A DNA stretch of 62,241 nucleotides. Source: Chloroflexota bacterium (GTDB lineage: Bacteria > Chloroflexota > Dehalococcoidia > DSTF01 > JACRBR01). Below are positions 15,039-38,689 of this stretch, piece after piece. The first letter of the stretch is position 1; each line of letters begins with the position of its first letter. The position numbers and the translations under genes were made by a program. The notes under the pieces were generated by a model. It ran no database searches, had not been told where the DNA came from, and saw only the letters and a program-made list of their open reading frames with translations. Location: contig JAGWOC010000010.1 in assembly GCA_028872875.1 (NCBI GenBank), positions 1 through 62,241 on the forward strand, given 5' to 3'.

Positions 15039-15158
15039 CGGTCGCCTCCTTGTCAGCCTGGACGTGTCCGGGCGCCATGATAGCGGCTGCTGGCTGCCAT
15101 CGTCAGGGCCGCATGGACGGAGGCAGAGGGCGAGGTGCGCCGGGGCGGCGGCTTGGGA

Positions 15159-15164
15159 TACCAT
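15159..15164 (+). promoter_or_regulatory. Candidate -10 hexamer (TACCAT) for the mutase gene
   Basis: TACCAT ends 9 bases before the ATG at 15174, with no Shine-Dalgarno sequence between. This spacing would give a leaderless or nearly leaderless mRNA. Motif match only. Confidence 0.3.
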
Positions 15165-15173
15165 TCCGGCACC

Positions 15174-16859
15174 ATGACCAGCACCAACGGCCACACGGAC
15201 CCCGGCGAGCTGCGGGCCGCGCTCGCGCGCTGGGAGCAGGGCACGCTGCGCAAGGCGCTCGACCGCGGCGGTGAGCGGCAGGCGCGCTTCGCGACGACGT
15301 CGACCGAAACACGGCGGCTCTACACCCCGCTCGACGCCGCCGGCGTGGACTACGACCGCGACCTCGGTCTCCCGGGCGAGTATCCGTACACGCGCGGCGT
15401 CCAGCCGACGATGTACCGTGGCCGCCTCTGGACGATGCGGCAGTACGCCGGCTTCGGCACGGCGACCGAGTCGAACGAGCGCTTCAAGTTCTTGCTCTCG
15501 CAAGGGCAGACCGGCCTTTCCGTCGCCTTCGACCTGCCGACCCAGATCGGCATGGATTCCGACGACCCGGACGCCGAGGCCGAGATCGGCCAGGTCGGCG
15601 TCGCCATCGACTCGCTGGCCGACATGGAGGAGATGTTCGCCGGCATCCCGCTGGACCGCGTGTCGACGTCGATGACCATCAACGCCCCCGCGTCCGTGCT
15701 GGTGGCGATGTACATGGTCGTGGCGGAGAAGCAGGGCGTGCCCTCGGGCGACATCATGGGTACCGCGCAGAACGACGTGCTGAAGGAGTACGTCGCCCGC
15801 GGCACCTACATCTACCCGCCGCGTGCCTCGCTCCGGCTCGCCGCCGATCTCATCACCTACTGCGCGCGTTACGCCCCGAAGTTCAACAGCATCTCGGTCA
15901 GCGGCTACCACATCCGCGACGCCGGCGCGACCGCCGCGCAGGAGATCGGCTTCGCCTTCGGCAACGCGATCGCGTACCTCGAGGCGTGCCAGCGGGCGGG
16001 CGTCGGCATCGACGAGGTGGCGCCGCGCATCTCCTGGATCTTCAACACGCACAACAACTTCTTCGAGGAGGTCGCCAAGTACCGCGCGCTGCGCCGCATG
16101 TGGGCGAGGCTGCTGCGCGGCCGCTTCGGCGCGCAGGATCCGGCGTCGTGGAAGCTGCGCACGCACGTCCAGACCGGCGGTGCGACGCTGACGGCGCAGC
16201 AGCCGGAGAACAACATCGTCCGCGCCTCGCTGCAGGCGCTCGCCTCCGTGCTCGGCGGCGTCCAGTCGATGGCCCTCTCCTGCTACGACGAGGCGCTCGC
16301 CATCCCCACCGAGGACGCCCAGCGCATCGCCCTGCGGACGCAGCAGATCATCGCCCACGAGACGGGGGTCACCGACACTGCTGACCCGCTCGGTGGCTCC
16401 TACTACGTCGAATCGCTGACGGACGAGATCGAGCGCAAGGCGCAGGAGTACATCGACCGCGTCGAGGATCTGGGGGGCGCCGTCGCGGCGATCGAGGCCG
16501 GCTACGTGCAGGCGGAGATCCAGGAGGCCGCCGTGCGCCAGCAGCGAGAGGTCGAATCGGGCGAGCGCGTCGTCGTCGGCGTCAACAAGTTCCGGAGCGA
16601 CGAAGGGCGCGAGCCGACGATCTTTCGCGTCAACACCGAGGTCGCGCGCGGCCAGGTCGAGCGCCTGCGCCGCGTCCGCGCCGGCCGCGACGCGGCTGTG
16701 GCCGCGACGGCGCTGCGGCGCCTCAACGACGCGGCGCACGGCGACCAGAACCTCATGCCGGCGATCCTCGAAGCCGTGCGCGCCTACGCCACCCTGGGCG
16801 AGATCTGCGGCGAGCTCCGCCAGACGTGGGGCGAGTACCGCCCGCCGACGGTGGTGTAG
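15174..16859 (+). CDS. mcmA1: Methylmalonyl-CoA mutase, large (catalytic) subunit without B12 domain
   Basis: The 561-residue protein is the TIM-barrel half of the B12 enzyme that interconverts methylmalonyl-CoA and succinyl-CoA. Tyr81 in PTMYRGRLWTMRQYAGF and Arg221 in YIYPPRASLR match the residues that select methylmalonyl-CoA (Tyr89 and Arg207 in the Propionibacterium enzyme), whereas isobutyryl-CoA mutases have Phe and Gln. His246 in SGYHIRDAG matches the catalytic His244. The C-terminal cobalamin domain (DxHxxG) is absent, so a separate small subunit must be encoded elsewhere. A diverged copy of its 3' end follows at 17392-17451, beyond hicAB. An upstream in-frame start at 15135 would add 13 residues. 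Confidence 0.93.
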   Translation: MTSTNGHTDPGELRAALARWEQGTLRKALDRGGERQARFATTSTETRRLYTPLDAAGVDYDRDLGLPGEYPYTRGVQPTMYRGRLWTMRQYAGFGTATESNERFKFLLSQGQTGLSVAFDLPTQIGMDSDDPDAEAEIGQVGVAIDSLADMEEMFAGIPLDRVSTSMTINAPASVLVAMYMVVAEKQGVPSGDIMGTAQNDVLKEYVARGTYIYPPRASLRLAADLITYCARYAPKFNSISVSGYHIRDAGATAAQEIGFAFGNAIAYLEACQRAGVGIDEVAPRISWIFNTHNNFFEEVAKYRALRRMWARLLRGRFGAQDPASWKLRTHVQTGGATLTAQQPENNIVRASLQALASVLGGVQSMALSCYDEALAIPTEDAQRIALRTQQIIAHETGVTDTADPLGGSYYVESLTDEIERKAQEYIDRVEDLGGAVAAIEAGYVQAEIQEAAVRQQREVESGERVVVGVNKFRSDEGREPTIFRVNTEVARGQVERLRRVRAGRDAAVAATALRRLNDAAHGDQNLMPAILEAVRAYATLGEICGELRQTWGEYRPPTVV

Positions 16860-16911: not shown

Positions 16912-17136
16912 CTGAGCGGCAGGCAGCTTCGTGGCGTCAGCGGTGGTCGCGCGATTCGTGCGTTCGAGAAGGCGGGGTATCACGTGGCCCGCACACGAGG
17001 CAGCCATGTCATCCTTGAACATCCAGATCGGAAGCCGCTCGTGATCCCACGCCACGGAGCGGTGAAGCCAGGATTATTGCTGGCGCGCGTCAAGGACGCG
17101 GGCCTGACGCCGGAGGCTTTCGCAGAACTGCTATGA
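16912..17136 (+). CDS. hicA: HicA-like mRNA interferase toxin, start codon unclear
   Basis: The frame from about 16888 to TGA at 17134 encodes a HicA-type small dsRBD-like protein: GVSGGRAIRAFEKAGYHVAR, then TRGSHVILEHPDRKPLVIPR, then LARVKDAGLTPEAFAELL. The catalytic histidine of the family is in RGSHVI. There is no in-frame ATG, GTG or TTG between the upstream stop (16885) and the core fold; the first is a GTG in the middle of the domain at about 16984. I set the start at CTG 16912, which gives 74 residues, a normal HicA length. Either a CTG start is used or the start has decayed. It is 7 bases before hicB. Base composition is less GC-rich than neighbouring genes. Confidence 0.7.
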   Translation: MSGRQLRGVSGGRAIRAFEKAGYHVARTRGSHVILEHPDRKPLVIPRHGAVKPGLLLARVKDAGLTPEAFAELL

Positions 17137-17143
17137 GGGACTG

Positions 17144-17368
17144 ATGTCCGACATCGAATACACGGTGATCGTGCACGAGGACGAAGACGGTGGCTTCTGG
17201 ACGGACGTCCCTGCGCTGCCGGGAACAGGGTCACAGGGCGACACCGTGGAAGAAGCCGTCCAGAACACGCGAGAAGCCGTCTCGCTCATGGTCGAGTACC
17301 TGCGCTCCCGTGGCGAGCCGATCCCGGCTCCGAAGGATCTCGTGGTGAAGATCACTGTCGCGGCGTGA
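17144..17368 (+). CDS. hicB: HicB-family antitoxin
   Basis: This 74-residue protein is a UPF0150/HicB fold: YTVIVHEDEDGGFWTDVPAL, then PGTGSQGDTVEEAVQNTREA. It neutralises HicA by blocking its active site. It lacks a clear C-terminal DNA-binding domain, so it is the short form, and autoregulation is uncertain. It follows hicA by 7 bases, preceded by GAGGGACTG as ribosome site, the common hicA-hicB order. Confidence 0.87.
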   Translation: MSDIEYTVIVHEDEDGGFWTDVPALPGTGSQGDTVEEAVQNTREAVSLMVEYLRSRGEPIPAPKDLVVKITVAA

Positions 17369-17391: not shown

Positions 17392-17451
17392 TCGGCCATC
17401 GACGCCGCCCGCGCCTACGCCACACCGGGCGAGGTCTGCGGCGGATCCCGC
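17392..17451 (+). pseudogene. Diverged duplicate of the 3' end of the methylmalonyl-CoA mutase gene
   Basis: By hand alignment, about 48 of 60 bases match 16758-16820 of the mutase gene, with one 3-base gap. Read in the matching frame it gives SAIDAARAYATPGEVCGGSR against PAILEAVRAYATLGEICGEL in the intact protein. It lies directly after hicB and before the fabG promoter, so hicAB sits between the intact gene end and this relic. A parallel relic of lepA lies beside the second TA module. Confidence 0.7.
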
Positions 17452-20216: not shown

Positions 20217-22052
20217 ATGGAACCCGCCCGCATCCGCAACTTCTGCATCATCGCCCACATCGACCACGGCAAGTCGACGCTCGCCGACCGCTTCCTCGAG
20301 CAGACCGGCACGATCGCCCGCCGCGACATGTCGGCGCAGGTGCTCGACGACATGGACCTCGAGCGCGAGAAGGGCGTCACCATCAAGGCCAAGGCCGTGC
20401 GCATGGCCTTCACCCACCGCGACGGCCGGGCGTACGAGCTGAACCTGATCGACACCCCCGGCCACGTCGACTTCGGCTACGAGGTCTCGCGCGCGCTCGC
20501 CGCCTGCGAGGGCGCGCTGCTCATCGTCGACGCCGCGCAGGGGATCCAGGCGCAGACCCTCGCCAACGTCTACCTGGCGCTCGATGCCGACCTCAAGCTG
20601 ATCCCCGTGGTCAACAAGATCGACCTGCCGAGCGCCGAGCCCGAGCGCGTCGCCCGGGAGCTGGCCGATACCCTCGGCTTCGACCCGGACGAGATCCTCT
20701 TCGCCTCCGCGAAGGAGGGCACCGGCACCCACGAGGTCCTGGAGGCCGTCGTCGACCGCATCCCGCCGCCCGCCGCCGACGCGGCGAAGCCCCTGCGCGC
20801 GCTGATCTTCGACAGCAAGTACGACGCCTACAAGGGCGTCATCGCCTACCTGCGCGTCGTCGATGGCGCCATCAGCCCGCGTCGCAAGCTGCGGCTGATG
20901 TCCAGCGGCCTCGCCGTCGAGCCGCTCGAGGCCGGCGTCTTCCGCCCGGGCTTCGACCCCGTGCCCGAGCTGACGGCGGGCGAGGTCGGGTACGTCGCGA
21001 CCGGCCTCAAGAACGTGAAGGACTGCCGCGTCGGCGACACGCTGACGGACGACGCGAAGCCCGCGGCCCACGCGCTTCCCGGCTACCGACCCGCCAAGCC
21101 GATGGTCTTCGCCGGCCTCTACCCGTCGCAGGCGAACGAGTACACGCTGCTCCGCGACGCGCTCGACAAGCTCCAGCTCAACGACGCCTCGCTGGTCTAC
21201 GAGCCGGAGTCGAGCGTCGCGCTCGGCTTCGGCTTCCGCTGCGGCTTCCTCGGTCTGCTGCACATGGAGATCGTCCAGGAGCGCCTCGAACGCGAGTACA
21301 ACCTCAACCTCCTCGCGACGGCGCCGAGCGTCGAGTACCAGGTGACGAAGACGGACGGCCAGGAGATCGTCATCGACAACCCCGCCGAGCTGCCGCCGCC
21401 GCAGGAGATCGAGCAGGTCCGCGAGCCGTGGATGGACATCTCGGTCGTCGTGCCGGACCGCTACATCGGCGCCGTCATGGAGCTGGTGACGGGCAACCGC
21501 GGCGAGTTCAGGCGCATGGAGTACCTGCAGCACAGCATCCTGCAGGCCGACGGCTCGAAGAAGGGCGAGGGGCGCGTCGTCATCGACTATCGCATCCCGC
21601 TGTCGGAGATCCTGGTGGACTTCTACGACCAGCTCAAGTCGCGGACGCAGGGCTACGCTTCGCTCGACTACAGCTTCTCGAAGTACGAGCCGGCGCCGCT
21701 CGTGAAGCTCGACATTCTGGTGAACGGCGAGCCCGTCGATGCGCTGTCGCTGATCACGCACCGCGAGGCCGCCGTCGCGCAGGGCCGCCAGCTCGTCGAG
21801 AAGCTGCGCACGCTGATCCCGCGGCAGATGTTCGACGTGCCGGTGCAGGCCGCGATCGGCGGCCGCGTGGTCGCCCGCGAGACGATCCGGGCGATGCGCA
21901 AGAACGTGCTGGCGAAGTGCTACGGCGGCGACGTCACCCGCAAGCGCAAGCTGCTGGAGAAGCAGGCCGAGGGCAAGCGCCGCATGAAGCGCGTCGGCAA
22001 CGTGGACATCCCGCAAGAGGCCTTCATGGCGGTGCTGCGGCTGGAGAAGTAG
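20217..22052 (+). CDS. lepA: Elongation factor 4 (LepA)
   Basis: The 611-residue translational GTPase back-translocates or remodels stalled ribosomes. G1 is [17 protein letters not shown]3 is [16 protein letters not shown] and G4 is VVNKIDLP. The LepA-specific C-terminal domain is present ([20 protein letters not shown], then [20 protein letters not shown]). Length matches the usual ~600 residues. A degenerate copy of its last codons follows at 22076-22120, in another frame. Confidence 0.97.
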
Positions 22053-22075
22053 GCGGCACCTGAATGGGGCACGAT

Positions 22076-22120
22076 ATGCCCAGCAAGGAGGTGTTCACGG
22101 CGGTGCCGCGGCTGGAGGAC
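22076..22120 (+). pseudogene. Diverged duplicate of the 3' end of lepA
   Basis: The stretch encodes KEVFTAVPRLED, against [12 protein letters not shown] at the true lepA C-terminus. In DNA, 28 of 36 bases match (22085-22120 against 22014-22049) in a hand alignment. It has its own ATG (22076) and TGA (22145) but no ribosome site. It lies 24 bases after the lepA stop and immediately before the hicBA promoter. Confidence 0.6.
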
Positions 22121-22142
22121 CAGGTGGCGGGCGGGCGCCTGA

Positions 22143-22148
22143 TATGAT
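22143..22148 (+). promoter_or_regulatory. Candidate -10 hexamer (TATGAT) for hicBA
   Basis: TATGAT ends 9 bases before the ATG at 22158, so transcription would start close to the start codon. The surrounding bases resemble those before the first TA module. Motif match only. Confidence 0.35.
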
Positions 22149-22157
22149 GTGAGAGCG

Positions 22158-22403
22158 ATGAACGAAATCCTCATCTCGCTCCATATCGAGCCGCTGGACG
22201 AAGGCGGCTATCTCGCCACCAGCGACGACGTGCCGGGTCTGCTGGCGCAAGGGCGCACGATGGCGGAGACGCTCGAAATCGCGCAGGACGTGGCTCGTAA
22301 GCTGATCGAGTCGTACCGAGAGCATGGCGACGAATTGCCGCCCGCGCTGCGCACTTCGGCGATCTCGGCCGGGGACACGCTGATTCCGGTCTCTGTCGCA
22401 TAA
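22158..22403 (+). CDS. hicB: HicB-family antitoxin (second module)
   Basis: This 81-residue UPF0150 protein begins MNEILISLHIEPLDEGGYLA and continues with SDDVPGLLAQGRTMAETLEI, the partial RNase-H-like fold of HicB. It is longer than the HicB at 17144 and not closely similar to it. Its stop overlaps the hicA ATG by 1 base (TAATG). A GTG at 22149 is an alternative start. The order here is antitoxin first, the reverse of the first module. Confidence 0.87.
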   Translation: MNEILISLHIEPLDEGGYLATSDDVPGLLAQGRTMAETLEIAQDVARKLIESYREHGDELPPALRTSAISAGDTLIPVSVA

Positions 22404-22627
22404 TGGGGCGACTGGCGGGGCTCAGCGCCGCTGACGTGTTGCGCAAACTGCGACGGGCCGGGTTCACGTTCGACCGGCATGCGAAGGGCAGTCACGAGAT
22501 CTGGTGGAACCCCACGACACGGGCACGCACCACCGTCCCTAACCATCCCGGCGATCTGCCCGAAGGGACGGTGCGAGCTATCGTCAGGCAAGCCGGACTC
22601 ACAGCCGATGAGTTCTTGAGCCTCTGA
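22403..22627 (+). CDS. hicA: HicA mRNA interferase toxin (second module)
   Basis: This 74-residue protein has the full HicA fold: LSAADVLRKLRRAGFTFDRH, then AKGSHEIWWNP with the catalytic His, then GTVRAIVRQAGLTADEFLSL. HicA cleaves mRNA when HicB is lost. Its start (ATG) is normal, unlike the other HicA. It ends 1 base before the birA GTG, so birA may be translated from the TA transcript. Confidence 0.9.
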   Translation: MGRLAGLSAADVLRKLRRAGFTFDRHAKGSHEIWWNPTTRARTTVPNHPGDLPEGTVRAIVRQAGLTADEFLSL

Positions 22628-22628
22628 C

Positions 22629-23450
22629 GTGGCAGCCGCCTTCGACCTCGACCGCTTCCGCGCCGCGCTCCGCACCGATACCTTCGGCCGCAACCTGATC
22701 TTCGAGCCCAGCGTCGGCTCGACGATGGACGTCGCGCGCGGCGCGGCCGGGCAGGGTGCGCCCGAGGGCACGCTCGCACTCGCCGACGAGCAGACCGCCG
22801 GCCGCGGCCGCCTCGGCCGCTCGTGGCTGGCGCCGCCGGCGGTGAACCTGCTGTCCACGCTGCTGCTGCGTCCGCCCGCCGCCGTCCTCCGCCAGGTCGC
22901 GATGATCGCCCCGCTCGCGGTCTGCGACGCCGTCGAGGAGTGCCATGGCCTGCGGCTCGACATCAAGTGGCCGAACGACGTGCAGGCGCACGGCAAGAAG
23001 CTCGCCGGCATCCTCATCGAGGTCCCGCACCCCCCGGTCCCATCTCCGGCAGGGGGAGAGGGGGAGAGCGTCGTGCTCGTCGGCGCCGGCATCAACGTCA
23101 ACTTCGACCCGCGCCCGTACGAGGAGGTGCGCGACATCGCGACGAGCGTCGCCGTCGAGCTGGCGCGCGAGGCCGGGCGGCCCGTGTGGGTCGAGCGCGA
23201 GCCGCTGCTCGCCGCCTACCTCGCGCACTTCGAGCGCATGTACGCGGCCGCGAGGGCCGGCGCGTCGGTGCGCGACGCCTGGCGCGCGCGCCTCGTCACG
23301 CTCGGCAGGGAGGTGCGCGCCGCCTGGCCCGGCGGCAGCGCGGAAGGCACTGCGGAAGACGTCGACGACGCCGGCGCGCTCATCGTCCGCACGGCCGGCG
23401 GCGAGCGGGTCACCGTCGAAGCGGGGGACGTGACGCTGCGGGGGGAGTAG
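22629..23450 (+). CDS. birA: Biotin-[acetyl-CoA-carboxylase] ligase, catalytic type without HTH
   Basis: The 273-residue enzyme attaches biotin to carboxylase carrier domains. Motifs are EQTAGRGRLGRSW (biotinyl-AMP loop), LDIKWPNDVQAHGKKLAGIL and VGAGINVNF. It starts directly at the catalytic domain, so it is the monofunctional form lacking the DNA-binding domain of E. coli BirA. Start is GTG at 22629, 1 base after hicA. Residues at about 133-147 (HPPVPSPAGGEGES) are encoded by an in-frame purine-rich repeat, see 23025-23068. Confidence 0.93.
   Translation: MAAAFDLDRFRAALRTDTFGRNLIFEPSVGSTMDVARGAAGQGAPEGTLALADEQTAGRGRLGRSWLAPPAVNLLSTLLLRPPAAVLRQVAMIAPLAVCDAVEECHGLRLDIKWPNDVQAHGKKLAGILIEVPHPPVPSPAGGEGESVVLVGAGINVNFDPRPYEEVRDIATSVAVELAREAGRPVWVEREPLLAAYLAHFERMYAAARAGASVRDAWRARLVTLGREVRAAWPGGSAEGTAEDVDDAGALIVRTAGGERVTVEAGDVTLRGE
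23025..23068 (+). repeat. Intergenic-type repeat inserted in frame within birA
   Basis: The stretch contains CCCGGTCCC followed by CTCCGGCAGGGGGAGAGGGG. This resembles the C-rich/G-rich hairpin repeats usually found between genes. It falls between the two conserved birA motifs KLAGILIE and VVLVGAGINVN, where other BirA proteins have a short loop, and keeps the frame open. Confidence 0.5.
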
Positions 23451-24387: not shown

Positions 24388-25470
24388 CTACTGGGGCCCC
24401 GGGTTGGCGGACAGCGTCGGCGTCACCTGCATCGGCGGGCCAGCCGGCACCGCGACCGCGGTGCCTGCGCTCGCCCAGCCGCTGCCGGAAGCGCCTGCAG
24501 CCGGCGTCGTGCACGACAGGGCGCCGTCGCTCGATACCGCGCACGACGGCGGCACTGGCGTCGGGCAGAGGGGCGCGATCTGCGGCTCGACGCCGGACGG
24601 TGCGCCGGGAGCGGGCGCGATGCAGGGCGGCGGTGAAGGTGGCGGACACACCTGGATGCACGGCGGCGGGCAGGTCGTCGGCGCGGGCTGCGGCTCGCTG
24701 CCGGGCGCGCCGGGCGCGGGTAGGATGCACGGCGGCGGCGGACACGTGGGCGCGACGTGCGGCTCGACGCCGGGCGCGGGCAGGGTGCACGGCGGCGGGC
24801 ATGCCGGCGCGGTCTGCGGGTCGATGCCGGGCCCGGGCACGCCGCACGGCGGCGGCATCGGACAGGCATGTTCCACCGCCGGCGTCGCCGGCAGTGGCTC
24901 GACGCATGGGAGCGGCGGCGGGCAGGCGGGCGCGATCTGCGGCTCGATGCCGGATGGTGCGCCGGGAGCGGGCAGGATGCACGGCGGCGGCGGGCAGGCG
25001 GGCGCACGCCGCGGCTCGACGCCAGGCGGGGGTCCCATTGCGGCCGGCGTACACGCGAGGCAGATCCCCGGCACGGCGCCGCTGCTCTCCGGCGTGCGCG
25101 TGGCCGGCTGCGGCGTCGGCACGCACCACGGCGGCCGGCAGGTCGTGCTGCCGCCGGCAGGTGCCTGCACGCAGACGTACGGCCCGGCCGGACGCGCGCC
25201 CGGGTAGCACTCCGCGGGCGGCAGGGAGTCGGCGCACACCGCGCCCGGCCGCGACGGCGCGGCGGTTGCGCAGGCGACTGCCTCGTTGCAGCTCAGTTCC
25301 GGCTGGGGCGTCGCACGCACGGCTCCCGCCGTCGGCGTGGCGGTCGCGGCGACCTGTCGAGGCGCTGTCTGGGCGCCGCCGCCCATCGCGAACGCCGCGA
25401 TGCCTCCGGCCGCTACGAGCGCCGCTACCGCGACCAGCGCCGCCGCAAGCTTCCGATTCCAGTGCCGCAC
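24388..25470 (-). CDS. Exported or anchored Pro/Cys-rich repeat protein
   Basis: The 360-residue protein starts with GTG at 25470 after AAGGAGGTG and has an N-terminal hydrophobic segment at residues 6-30 (LAAALVAVAALVAAGGIAAF). It may be a signal peptide or an anchor. From about residue 125 to 320 it consists of imperfect repeats of the form CPPPPCILPAPGAPSG-EPQIAPA, with two cysteines in most units. It has no similarity I can name. The Cys-Pro pattern suggests an extended, disulfide-linked or metal-binding surface protein. It is divergent from the Rieske-like gene at 25697. Confidence 0.75.
   Translation of the reverse strand: MRHWNRKLAAALVAVAALVAAGGIAAFAMGGGAQTAPRQVAATATPTAGAVRATPQPELSCNEAVACATAAPSRPGAVCADSLPPAECYPGARPAGPYVCVQAPAGGSTTCRPPWCVPTPQPATRTPESSGAVPGICLACTPAAMGPPPGVEPRRAPACPPPPCILPAPGAPSGIEPQIAPACPPPLPCVEPLPATPAVEHACPMPPPCGVPGPGIDPQTAPACPPPCTLPAPGVEPHVAPTCPPPPCILPAPGAPGSEPQPAPTTCPPPCIQVCPPPSPPPCIAPAPGAPSGVEPQIAPLCPTPVPPSCAVSSDGALSCTTPAAGASGSGWASAGTAVAVPAGPPMQVTPTLSANPGPQ
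24571..24990. repeat. Coding tandem/dispersed repeats in the Pro/Cys-rich gene
   Basis: The clearest pair is 24571-24633 and 24928-24990: 58 of 63 bases are identical by hand count. Related but shorter units lie between them (for example around 24690-24740 and 24755-24800). They encode the CPPP...APGAPSG...EPQIAP blocks. Near identity at the DNA level suggests recent duplication or gene conversion inside the gene. Confidence 0.75.
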
Positions 25471-36425: not shown

Positions 36426-37502
36426 ATGGCCGTCAGTCCTGGCATTCTGCAGGAGCTTCGCAAGGAATCCGGGGGCGAGGACCTCGACCTCTCGTGGCTC
36501 GACCGGCCGCTCGCCGAGCGCGGCCTGCGCGTCGCTCCGGGGAAGCGGGGTCTGACGCTCGAGGACATCGCGACCTCGTCGTACGGCGCCATCCCGGCTT
36601 CGACGAGCAACCAGAGCGGGCGCATGCGCGGCGCCGCGCCGCGCTCCGACGCGCAGCACACGCAGATGATCTGGCCCTCGAAGGCGGCATCGTGGTCGGA
36701 GTCGGCGATGCTGCTCTACGAAGAGGCGGTGCAACGCCAGTGGAGCAGCGCCGTCGACGTGCCCTGGGCGGACCTTCCCGACCTGCCCGAGGAGATCGAG
36801 CTGGCGATGTCGCAGCTCTGCACGTTCCTCACGCAGGTCGAGTTCATCGCCGGTGACGTCCCGGGCAAGTATGCCCCGAACGTCAGCGGCGAGTACTTCG
36901 AGATCGGCCTCTTCCTCGCCAGCCAGATCATGGACGAGGCGCGCCACCTCGACGTCTTCCGCAAGCGCGCGCTGGCAAATGGCATCGGCCTGCTGCAGGC
37001 GGGCCCGGGCGCGATCGGCCTGCTGACGGCGCAGGATTTCACGGAGATGGCGTCGACCCTGCACCTCGTCGGTGAGGGCTTCGTGCAGTCGATGTTCCGG
37101 ATGGGCGAGATGTTCGCGCAGAGCGAGGTCGACAAGCGCATGTTCCGGCTGGCGGCGCAGGACGAGAGCCGCCACGTCGCGTTCGGCGTCATGCACATGA
37201 AGTACGTGATCGAGATGCAGCCGGAGCGGCGCGACGAGATCCACACCTACCTCGACCGCATGGAGGGGCAGCTCGGCACCGGCTCGGCGCAGGCGGGGCT
37301 CACCGGCGGCGGCCAGACGGGCGAGGCGCTGGCGATCCTGCTCGGCGGCGGCACGAGCGAGACGCAGCTCCGCGAGGGCTACCTGAAGCTGCTGGCGATC
37401 CGCAAGCGGCAGGTGAACGAGTATATGCACCGGCTCGAAGTCGTCGGCCTCGGCGACCGCCGCCAGCGGATGGCGCCGATGATGCAGGCGCTGTTGAACT
37501 AG
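36426..37502 (+). CDS. Diiron ferritin-like oxidase (R2/R2-like or AurF-like), full ligand set
   Basis: The 358-residue protein is a four-helix diiron protein. Ligands in order are Glu99 (LLYEEAVQRQW), Glu171 and His174 (MDEARHLDVFRK), Glu217 (LVGEGFVQ), and Glu247 and His250 (QDESRHVAFG). This is the E / ExxH / E / ExxH pattern of ribonucleotide-reductase R2-like oxidases and AurF-type N-oxygenases. There is no large RNR subunit nearby, so dNTP synthesis is unlikely. The ATG follows CGAGGAGGC. A paralog with two altered ligands follows 101 bases downstream. The natural substrate is unknown. Confidence 0.85.
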   Translation: MAVSPGILQELRKESGGEDLDLSWLDRPLAERGLRVAPGKRGLTLEDIATSSYGAIPASTSNQSGRMRGAAPRSDAQHTQMIWPSKAASWSESAMLLYEEAVQRQWSSAVDVPWADLPDLPEEIELAMSQLCTFLTQVEFIAGDVPGKYAPNVSGEYFEIGLFLASQIMDEARHLDVFRKRALANGIGLLQAGPGAIGLLTAQDFTEMASTLHLVGEGFVQSMFRMGEMFAQSEVDKRMFRLAAQDESRHVAFGVMHMKYVIEMQPERRDEIHTYLDRMEGQLGTGSAQAGLTGGGQTGEALAILLGGGTSETQLREGYLKLLAIRKRQVNEYMHRLEVVGLGDRRQRMAPMMQALLN

Positions 37503-37603: not shown

Positions 37604-38689
37604 ATGGCTGACAGTGAGACGCAGGGACAGCCGCAGGCAGCGCCCATCGCCCCGGAGATCCCCGGCATCCCGGCGCCGCCCGCGCTGGACATGAGCTGGG
37701 CGAGGGTGCCGACGGCGCGGCCGGCGAAGCCGACGATCGGCGCGGAGGGCTTCACGCTGAAGATGGCGGACGCCGGCGAGTACGCGTACGCGCCGGACCA
37801 CTGGCCGTACGAGAACGACACGCCGCGTGGCTCGTACCCGGCGAAGGACCGCGGGCTGCCGGCGCCGTACACGATCTACGAGAAGGCCGAGGTCTGGGCC
37901 GAGAACTGCGCCGACCTCTACGAGGCGGCGATCCGCGAGCAATGGAAGCCGGCGACCCAGGTGTCGTGGTCGTCCATCGAGCCGCTCCCCGACCACATCG
38001 AGGCGTCGCTCGACCAGATCTTCTCGAACATCTCCGAGCAGCAGTACAACTCGAACGCCGTGCTGATGGGGTGGCTCAAGGAGATCTCGTACGGTTATCA
38101 CGAGGTCAAGCTCTACCTGGCGACGCAGACGTTCGACCAGGCGCGCCACGTCGAGGCGTTCCGCAAGCGCGCGCTGGCGAACGGCGGCGGCCTCGGCGTG
38201 CAGGCGCCGGGCTTCCTCAGCCGTGCGGTGTTCGCCGCGTTCAAGTTCACCGAGCTGACGGTCTACGTGAACATCATCCGCACCGCGTTCCTGCTCGCGC
38301 TGTGCGAGCGCGGGGACGCGATCGGCCGCTCGCAGGCGGACCGCCAGCTCTTCGAGTTGACGGCGAACGACCTGCGGCGCCACCTGGCGTACGGCGTCGA
38401 GCACCTGCGGCACTACCTGCTGCAGGGCGACGATGCGAAGCGCCGCAACGTGCGCGCGTGGCTGGAGCGCGGCGAGATCATGCTGGCGGCGGACCTGCGC
38501 CGGGACAGGCCGCTGCGTGAGGCGCTGATTCTCGTGCTCGGCGGCAGTGTGCAGGCCGGCAAGACGGCGCTGCGTGAGCTGCGGCAGGCCCAGCTTCGCC
38601 GGTACCTGCGCGCGCTCGAATCGGCGACGTTCGTCGGCCACGAGCAGCACGTCAACCCGGCGCTCACGGAGATCATCGACAACCCGTAG
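37604..38689 (+). CDS. Paralog of the diiron oxidase with altered metal ligands
   Basis: The 361-residue protein aligns along the fold with its neighbour: LYEAAIREQW, FDQARHVEAFRKRALANG, KFTELTVYVN and NDLRRHLAYGVEHL match in order. Glu107, His182, Glu217 and His260 are kept, but the two ExxH glutamates are Gln179 and Leu257. A standard diiron site is therefore not expected; it may be a non-catalytic partner. It also has a 60-residue Pro-rich N-terminus absent from the first copy. The ATG follows GGAGGGG. The two genes are probably one transcript. Confidence 0.82.
   Translation: MADSETQGQPQAAPIAPEIPGIPAPPALDMSWARVPTARPAKPTIGAEGFTLKMADAGEYAYAPDHWPYENDTPRGSYPAKDRGLPAPYTIYEKAEVWAENCADLYEAAIREQWKPATQVSWSSIEPLPDHIEASLDQIFSNISEQQYNSNAVLMGWLKEISYGYHEVKLYLATQTFDQARHVEAFRKRALANGGGLGVQAPGFLSRAVFAAFKFTELTVYVNIIRTAFLLALCERGDAIGRSQADRQLFELTANDLRRHLAYGVEHLRHYLLQGDDAKRRNVRAWLERGEIMLAADLRRDRPLREALILVLGGSVQAGKTALRELRQAQLRRYLRALESATFVGHEQHVNPALTEIIDNP

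Follow-up and report, generated by a model that had tools for sequence, protein, structure and literature searches.

Small toxin–antitoxin (TA) gene pairs in a Chloroflexota bacterium and some of its relatives are often flanked by two copies of a gene end, and these cassettes probably insert there with duplication of 30–200 bases of target DNA. We analyzed a 62,241-nucleotide stretch of DNA (the window) from the bacterium, together with the other hicA loci of its genome (G000), the genomes of relatives, and controls. The window contains two modules that we assign to HicAB from a HicA domain and an adjacent HicB-like antitoxin, with toxicity and its neutralization predicted. Module 1 lies between two copies of the 3′ end of the preceding gene, mcm. 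Module 2 lies beside a relic of the lepA 3′ end that is likely a separate, old duplication (Table 1).

Table 1. Features of the window at and around its two hicAB modules.
Feature	Position	Strand	Basis or remark
Empty site (mcm leader and first codons)	15135–15213	+	single copy; duplicated in G001
mcm, methylmalonyl-CoA mutase	15174–16859	+	Pfam MM_CoA_mutase
Left target-duplication copy of module 1, within the mcm 3′ end	16768–16812	+	
hicA, module 1 (start of domain; start codon unsettled)	16951–17136	+	Pfam PF07927
hicB, module 1	17144–17368	+	Pfam PF15919, 47.4 bits
Right copy of module 1, relic of the mcm 3′ end	17399–17443	+	39/45 identical
lepA (elongation factor 4), intact	20217–22052	+	Pfam GTP_EFTU, LepA_C
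Functional repeat copy, lepA 3′ end	22014–22049	+	36-mer comparison
Relic, diverged second copy of the lepA 3′ end	22085–22120	+	28/36 identical; weaker similarity to about 22146
hicB-like antitoxin, module 2	22158–22403	+	Pfam PF15919, E 0.0013, under its curated cut-off
hicA toxin, module 2	22403–22627	+	Pfam PF07927, 70.7 bits
birA-like biotin protein ligase	22629–23450	+	Pfam BPL_LplA_LipB, BPL_C

The genome carries six hicA loci (Pfam PF07927), and at four of them the hicAB module is bracketed by direct repeats, 33 to 84 bp long, of the end of a flanking gene. The duplicated ends are the aroB 5′ end (L006, 74 of 75 positions identical), the 3′ end of a 388-aa ORF (L004, 76/84), the mcm 3′ end (L002, 39/45), and the mfd leader (L005, 29/33). 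Flanking repeats were absent from the two other hicA loci tested, lepA–hicBA and L003. A previous sequence-only reading of this DNA had placed module 1 next to a diverged copy of the 3′ end of the preceding gene, and the mcm repeats bear this out. The antitoxins of module 1 and L006 matched PF15919 above its cut-off and that of module 2 below it, and those of L004 and L005 had no Pfam match. A scan of L001 to L006 revealed no inverted repeats at the hicAB ends.

The lepA relic is real, yet it is an atypical case. The sequence-only reading had reported that the lepA end recurs downstream, at 28 of 36 positions and in a frame other than that of lepA. This observation stands: the second copy is shifted by 71 nt, the runner-up 36-mers in the window matched the lepA end at only 22 (plus strand) and 23 (minus strand) positions, and 5000 dinucleotide shuffles of the sequence downstream never gave a gapped alignment score as high as that of the pair, 21.5. 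The same score was reached in 26 of 5916 position-and-strand tests over 225 kb of this genome, at seven other places, which makes local duplications this strong uncommon, but not unique. The similarity may extend about 30 bases beyond the lepA stop codon, judging from a weaker, gapped alignment of 22017–22078 with 22088–22146, as a tandem duplication some 70 bp long would give. Because the relic is nearer to the lepA end of G002, a member of the same genus (30/36), than to that of its own genome (28/36), the duplication is probably old. Both copies lie 5′ of hicBA, and no direct repeat flanking hicBA itself was found. With its copies all on one side, the site has the look of an old tandem duplication rather than of an insertion scar; the mcm copies flank hicAB and the lepA copies do not, and modules 1 and 2 thus differ in structure.

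The interval between lepA and the birA-like gene, whose start codon lies one base past the hicA stop codon of module 2, spans 137 bp in G003 and 1080 bp in G001, where it contains another ORF. We saw no hicBA ORF in these two intervals, and the relic scored just 7 and 11 there. Replication slippage would account for the relic as nothing more than a tandem duplication of some 70 bp, unrelated to hicBA and adjacent to it by accident, and in our judgment this explanation has an even chance of being correct. It agrees with the location of both copies on the same side of hicBA, with a similarity that may pass the stop codon, with the equal scores elsewhere in the genome, and with the absence of the relic upstream of every hicB homolog examined (best score 9, versus 73 for the relic itself); however, the relic directly borders a TA module, in a genome with gene-end duplications at four of its six hicA loci. 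The scores of the hicB homologs also led us to reject, for these homologs, transport of a lepA-like stretch by hicBA. Most probably, the relic arose by tandem duplication on the spot or is left over from an earlier insertion; it is not a flanking scar of the present hicBA.

Single-copy empty sites cover the aroB, mcm 5′, and pth/mfd cases. In five relatives (G002 to G006), a shikimate kinase gene, named from its Pfam matches, adjoins aroB. The aroB start was single by BLAST in G002, G003, G004, and G006; in G005 the divergence is too great, and BLAST gave no match. G000 and its sister species G001 have a common hicAB insertion at this site, flanked on each side by a copy of the first 25 aroB codons. 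The copies agree at 74/75 and 65/75 positions within a genome and at 60 to 63 of 75 between the genomes. This greater likeness within genomes suggests gene conversion, and recombination between such repeats therefore probably occurs. At the 5′ end of mcm, G001 carries a 574-bp insert that is bounded by 79-bp copies of the target (76/79 identical) and contains an MqsA-type antitoxin along with a DUF4258 ORF. The window holds the empty counterpart of this insert, with one copy of the target, and both G001 copies have bases in common that differ from G000. The DUF4258 ORF of this module (L245:940–1448) contains an in-frame stop codon, and its MqsA-type antitoxin ORF is open.

The pth–mfd interval contains one hicBA cassette in both sister species (429 identical of 460 aligned columns), but at different places and with different duplications: in G000 it sits at the mfd leader, which is doubled, and in G001 at the 3′ end of pth, doubled likewise. 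Each of these targets is single in the stretch of the other species that was examined. The pth repeat is identical at 127 of 127 positions and starts at a contig end; 127 is a common assembly k-mer length, and the real repeat could thus extend further. This comparison of one cassette at two sites indicates that the repeats are those of the target and not of the cassette. Flanked cargo, a single-copy empty site, and a long duplication of variable length are the marks of insertion with long target duplication, and of these the flanking is lacking at lepA–hicBA.

One-sided homologous recombination predicts the identical structure. In this scheme, cassette-bearing DNA of a relative pairs at the gene end and is joined illegitimately on the opposite side, which doubles the end, and the two copies could differ from the outset. 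A donor with the same arrangement is required, however, and the aroB copies are closer within a genome than between species, and the two pth copies are fully identical. Copies that are more alike within a genome fit self-duplication, or later gene conversion. We regard one-sided recombination as unlikely, and insertion with duplication of the target as the better description of these sites.

The sequence-only reading had proposed that other hicAB loci be searched for duplicated gene ends and compared with random regions. In a survey of the relatives and of GTDB genomes, 31 of 113 hicA loci reached threshold (113 of 114 loci were tested, L097 being too short; L064 and L135 seem to be one locus, and L107 and L134 seem to be orthologous, so the loci are not fully independent), versus 79 of 3439 overlapping random windows (18/1379 and 61/2060, leaving out nine of 20 own-genome stretches that read N only). 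Part of the random-window matches are TA modules themselves. The hicA matches comprise 4/6 loci of G000, 5/29 and 12/39 loci of relatives, and 10/39 GTDB homologs of the window HicA; most of the genomes with G numbers consist of many contigs and are probably MAGs. Mutually overlapping windows in lepA loci passed in 1 of 448 cases. Matches were found at 4/25 ParE/RelE and 5/28 PIN/VapC loci and at 2/55 non-TA controls (cold-shock genes, 1/25; acetyltransferases, 1/30), the ParE, PIN, and cold-shock counts leaving out 5, 2, and 5 truncated loci, respectively. Relative to the cold-shock and acetyltransferase genes combined, enrichment was significant by Fisher's test for hicA (p = 9e-5) and for ParE plus PIN (p = 0.02). 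The threshold, a score of 23, was fixed after the first loci were known and was left unchanged thereafter; the further TA families, both sets of non-TA control genes, and the phylum sample were all added after it had been fixed. The notion of a common route by which these modules settle at gene ends is thus supported by four of the six loci of the genome and by the enrichment over controls, but not by the lepA site, which is without the flanking geometry.

The signal in a phylum-wide replicate, which included genomes of the same class, was weaker than in the hicA survey. Raw matches numbered 8/45 (3/26, from a first set of 27 given and 26 tested, plus 5/19), and the sole clean case was L330 (tRNA-Ala). 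By eye, L375, L377, and L383 have the look of dispersed repeats, L375 being the raw match of the single-contig genome G131, and L328, L386, L316, and L378 are without host-end assignment. In a further family-level set of 20 TA loci, at least three of which overlap earlier samples, two (L298 and L292) scored at least 20. None of four TA loci of E. coli K-12 (yafNO, mazEF, hicAB, and prlF-yhaV) passed. Clean cases beyond the class are few: L128 (Acidobacteria), L142 (Rubritepida), and L330.

To assign host ends, the repeats were matched against all loci collected, ORFs, Pfam, and ARAGORN. A gene or tRNA end was assigned for 20 of the 31 hicA matches (L006, L004, L002, L005, L124, L085, L128, L104, L061, L083, L071, L074, L067, L068, L045, L142, L108, L134, L107, and L040), with L108, L134, L107, and L040 assigned by eye and L067 by its similarity to L185. 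The other 11 (L090, L109, L091, L111, L132, L078, L129, L089, L056, L072, and L047) are dispersed repeats, TA paralogs, or matches without a host end. Six of nine ParE/PIN matches were assigned (L160, L155, L192, L194, L185, and L182) and three were not (L169, L157, and L184). By our own reading of the Pfam matches, the protein-gene hosts are aroB, mcm, nadC, uvrB, argJ, secA, uvrA, trmO, pyrD, leuD, queA, carA, and pth, a list that takes in cases outside the 113, namely uvrA (L291) and trmO (L289), both from random stretches, and pth (L298). The mcm gene also served as a target in G001 and at L124. ARAGORN identified tRNA-Asn, -Gln, -Lys, and -Ala as hosts (L068, L045, L142, and L330), with the genes or their ends doubled around hicA modules and inserts of about 470 to 650 bp. 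These results do not sustain the narrower form of the earlier claim, in which the duplications belonged to HicAB and to gene 3′ ends: RelE/ParE, VapC/PIN, and DUF4258–MqsA modules have them too, and the targets include 5′ ends and tRNA genes.

Among 19 protein-gene cases scored for orientation, a count that excludes PLD-gene and tRNA cases, 18 cassettes ran the same way as the host gene (exception, L128; p = 4e-5 versus even odds). Repeat lengths were 33, 45, 75, 79, 84, at least 127, and 207 bp, and the inserts of assigned cases measured 461 to 1195 bp. By our own reading, with start codons taken from the ORF caller or by eye, 19 of 23 repeats had their outer edge within 12 nt of the start or stop codon of the host gene; in older cases, quicker decay outside the gene could help to create this pattern. 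The 5′ end of a PLD/NgoFVII-like gene, identified by Pfam for L074 and by repeat similarity for L185 and L182, flanks TA modules at these three loci in three genera (G034, G040, and G043), as if it were a favored target.

Islands and ICEs that integrate at tRNA genes or gene 3′ ends, by means of an integrase and a fixed att site, also duplicate the gene end and leave the gene whole. By analogy, the cassette, or a larger element since lost, could have brought an att copy of the gene end with it. The tRNA genes among the targets and the frequent placement of the outer repeat edge at a start or stop codon are in keeping with such site-specific integration. However, the inserts of about 460 to 1200 bp are by length small for an integrase plus two TA genes, 5′ ends serve as well as 3′ ends, and the G001 mcm 5′ copies carry common bases distinct from G000. 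In addition, the one hicBA cassette has different repeats at its two sites, so the repeat is not fixed to the element. We consider integrase-mediated integration improbable. An IS or transposon with a short target duplication of fixed length does not fit repeats of 33 to 207 bp. Chance similarity of GC-rich coding ends, conceivable in a window of 70% GC with periodic coding sequence, is exceedingly improbable given the lepA shuffles (0/5000) and is refuted for the strong cases by repeats of 74/75, 127/127, and 197/207.

In the mechanism that we propose for insertion with duplication of the target, one copy would complete the host gene and the other would persist as a decaying relic. The duplication would arise at insertion, without a transposase, and its simplest maker would be a two-step template switch or, alternatively, break repair in which widely staggered ends lead to the target being copied twice. 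Ku is present in G000 and G001, and no Ku match was found in nine genomes with clean cases (G025, G028, G034, G035, G040, G044, G045, G054, and G057; completeness, 69–99%); Ku end joining is thus not required as the maker. Recombination between the repeats would eject the cargo, but the loss of a TA pair would be punished by the toxin, so that TA pairs would become over-represented while other inserts acquired in the same way would be lost. Survivorship of this kind, with the toxin penalizing loss through repeat recombination, would be the simplest explanation of the TA enrichment. As a broader and more tentative reading, type II TA modules could be transposase-free mobile cassettes that enter the ends of housekeeping and tRNA genes independently of Ku and that the toxin then locks in place for as long as the relic has not decayed. 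If true, mobility of this kind would supply the route, missing so far, by which TA modules become established in chromosomes. Such a scar is readable in the sequence and would show where the cassette ends and in what order the events took place, which makes the question testable; the prediction is that TA (and RM) pairs, and not neutral genes, endure between long direct repeats. As a caution for annotation, a short relic of a gene end next to a TA pair can be an insertion scar and not a gene.

Some RM systems insert with long, variable target duplications on the order of 100 bp, according to a passage in PMC3874152; there and in a passage of PMC3031569, this mode of insertion is credited to Nobusato et al. 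2000 and Furuta et al. 2010, and both passages claim it for RM, not for TA. The cases described here resemble it in that the cargo is an addictive gene pair, a transposase is unneeded, the duplication is variable at about 100 bp, and the event is recognized through filled and empty sites. They differ in that the cargo is type II TA (HicAB, RelE, VapC, and MqsA type), the assigned targets are the ends of protein and tRNA genes, and most of the hosts are Chloroflexota. The sequence-only reading knew of no mechanism described for HicAB; a closely similar process is in print for RM (PMC3874152), and we found none for HicAB in the literature searched. The mechanism of TA integration is called unelucidated in a passage of a TA review (PMC7167474). 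Makarova 2009 (PMC2701414) found recent HEPN–MNT insertions by strain comparison, and the term "direct repeat" is absent from its main text. Among the matches listed from the open-licence literature, judged mostly by title and abstract, we recognized no report of TA modules with long target duplication. As described in PMC2654758, TA cassettes of super-integrons also move as an entire operon, but the flanks here are copies of host genes.

We also noted further repeats. In the window, 36909–37010 and 38111–38212 form a direct repeat (81/105) with copies 1100 bp apart, and 24557–25032 is rich in internal direct repeats. Elsewhere in G000, at L292 (contig C185), a RelE/ParE module lies between repeats (68/69) that are 1131 bp apart. 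At L283:18922–19266, a 28-bp repeat (27/28) surrounds a small ORF that by eye has the look of a semiSWEET transporter and is possibly a non-TA cargo of the same process.
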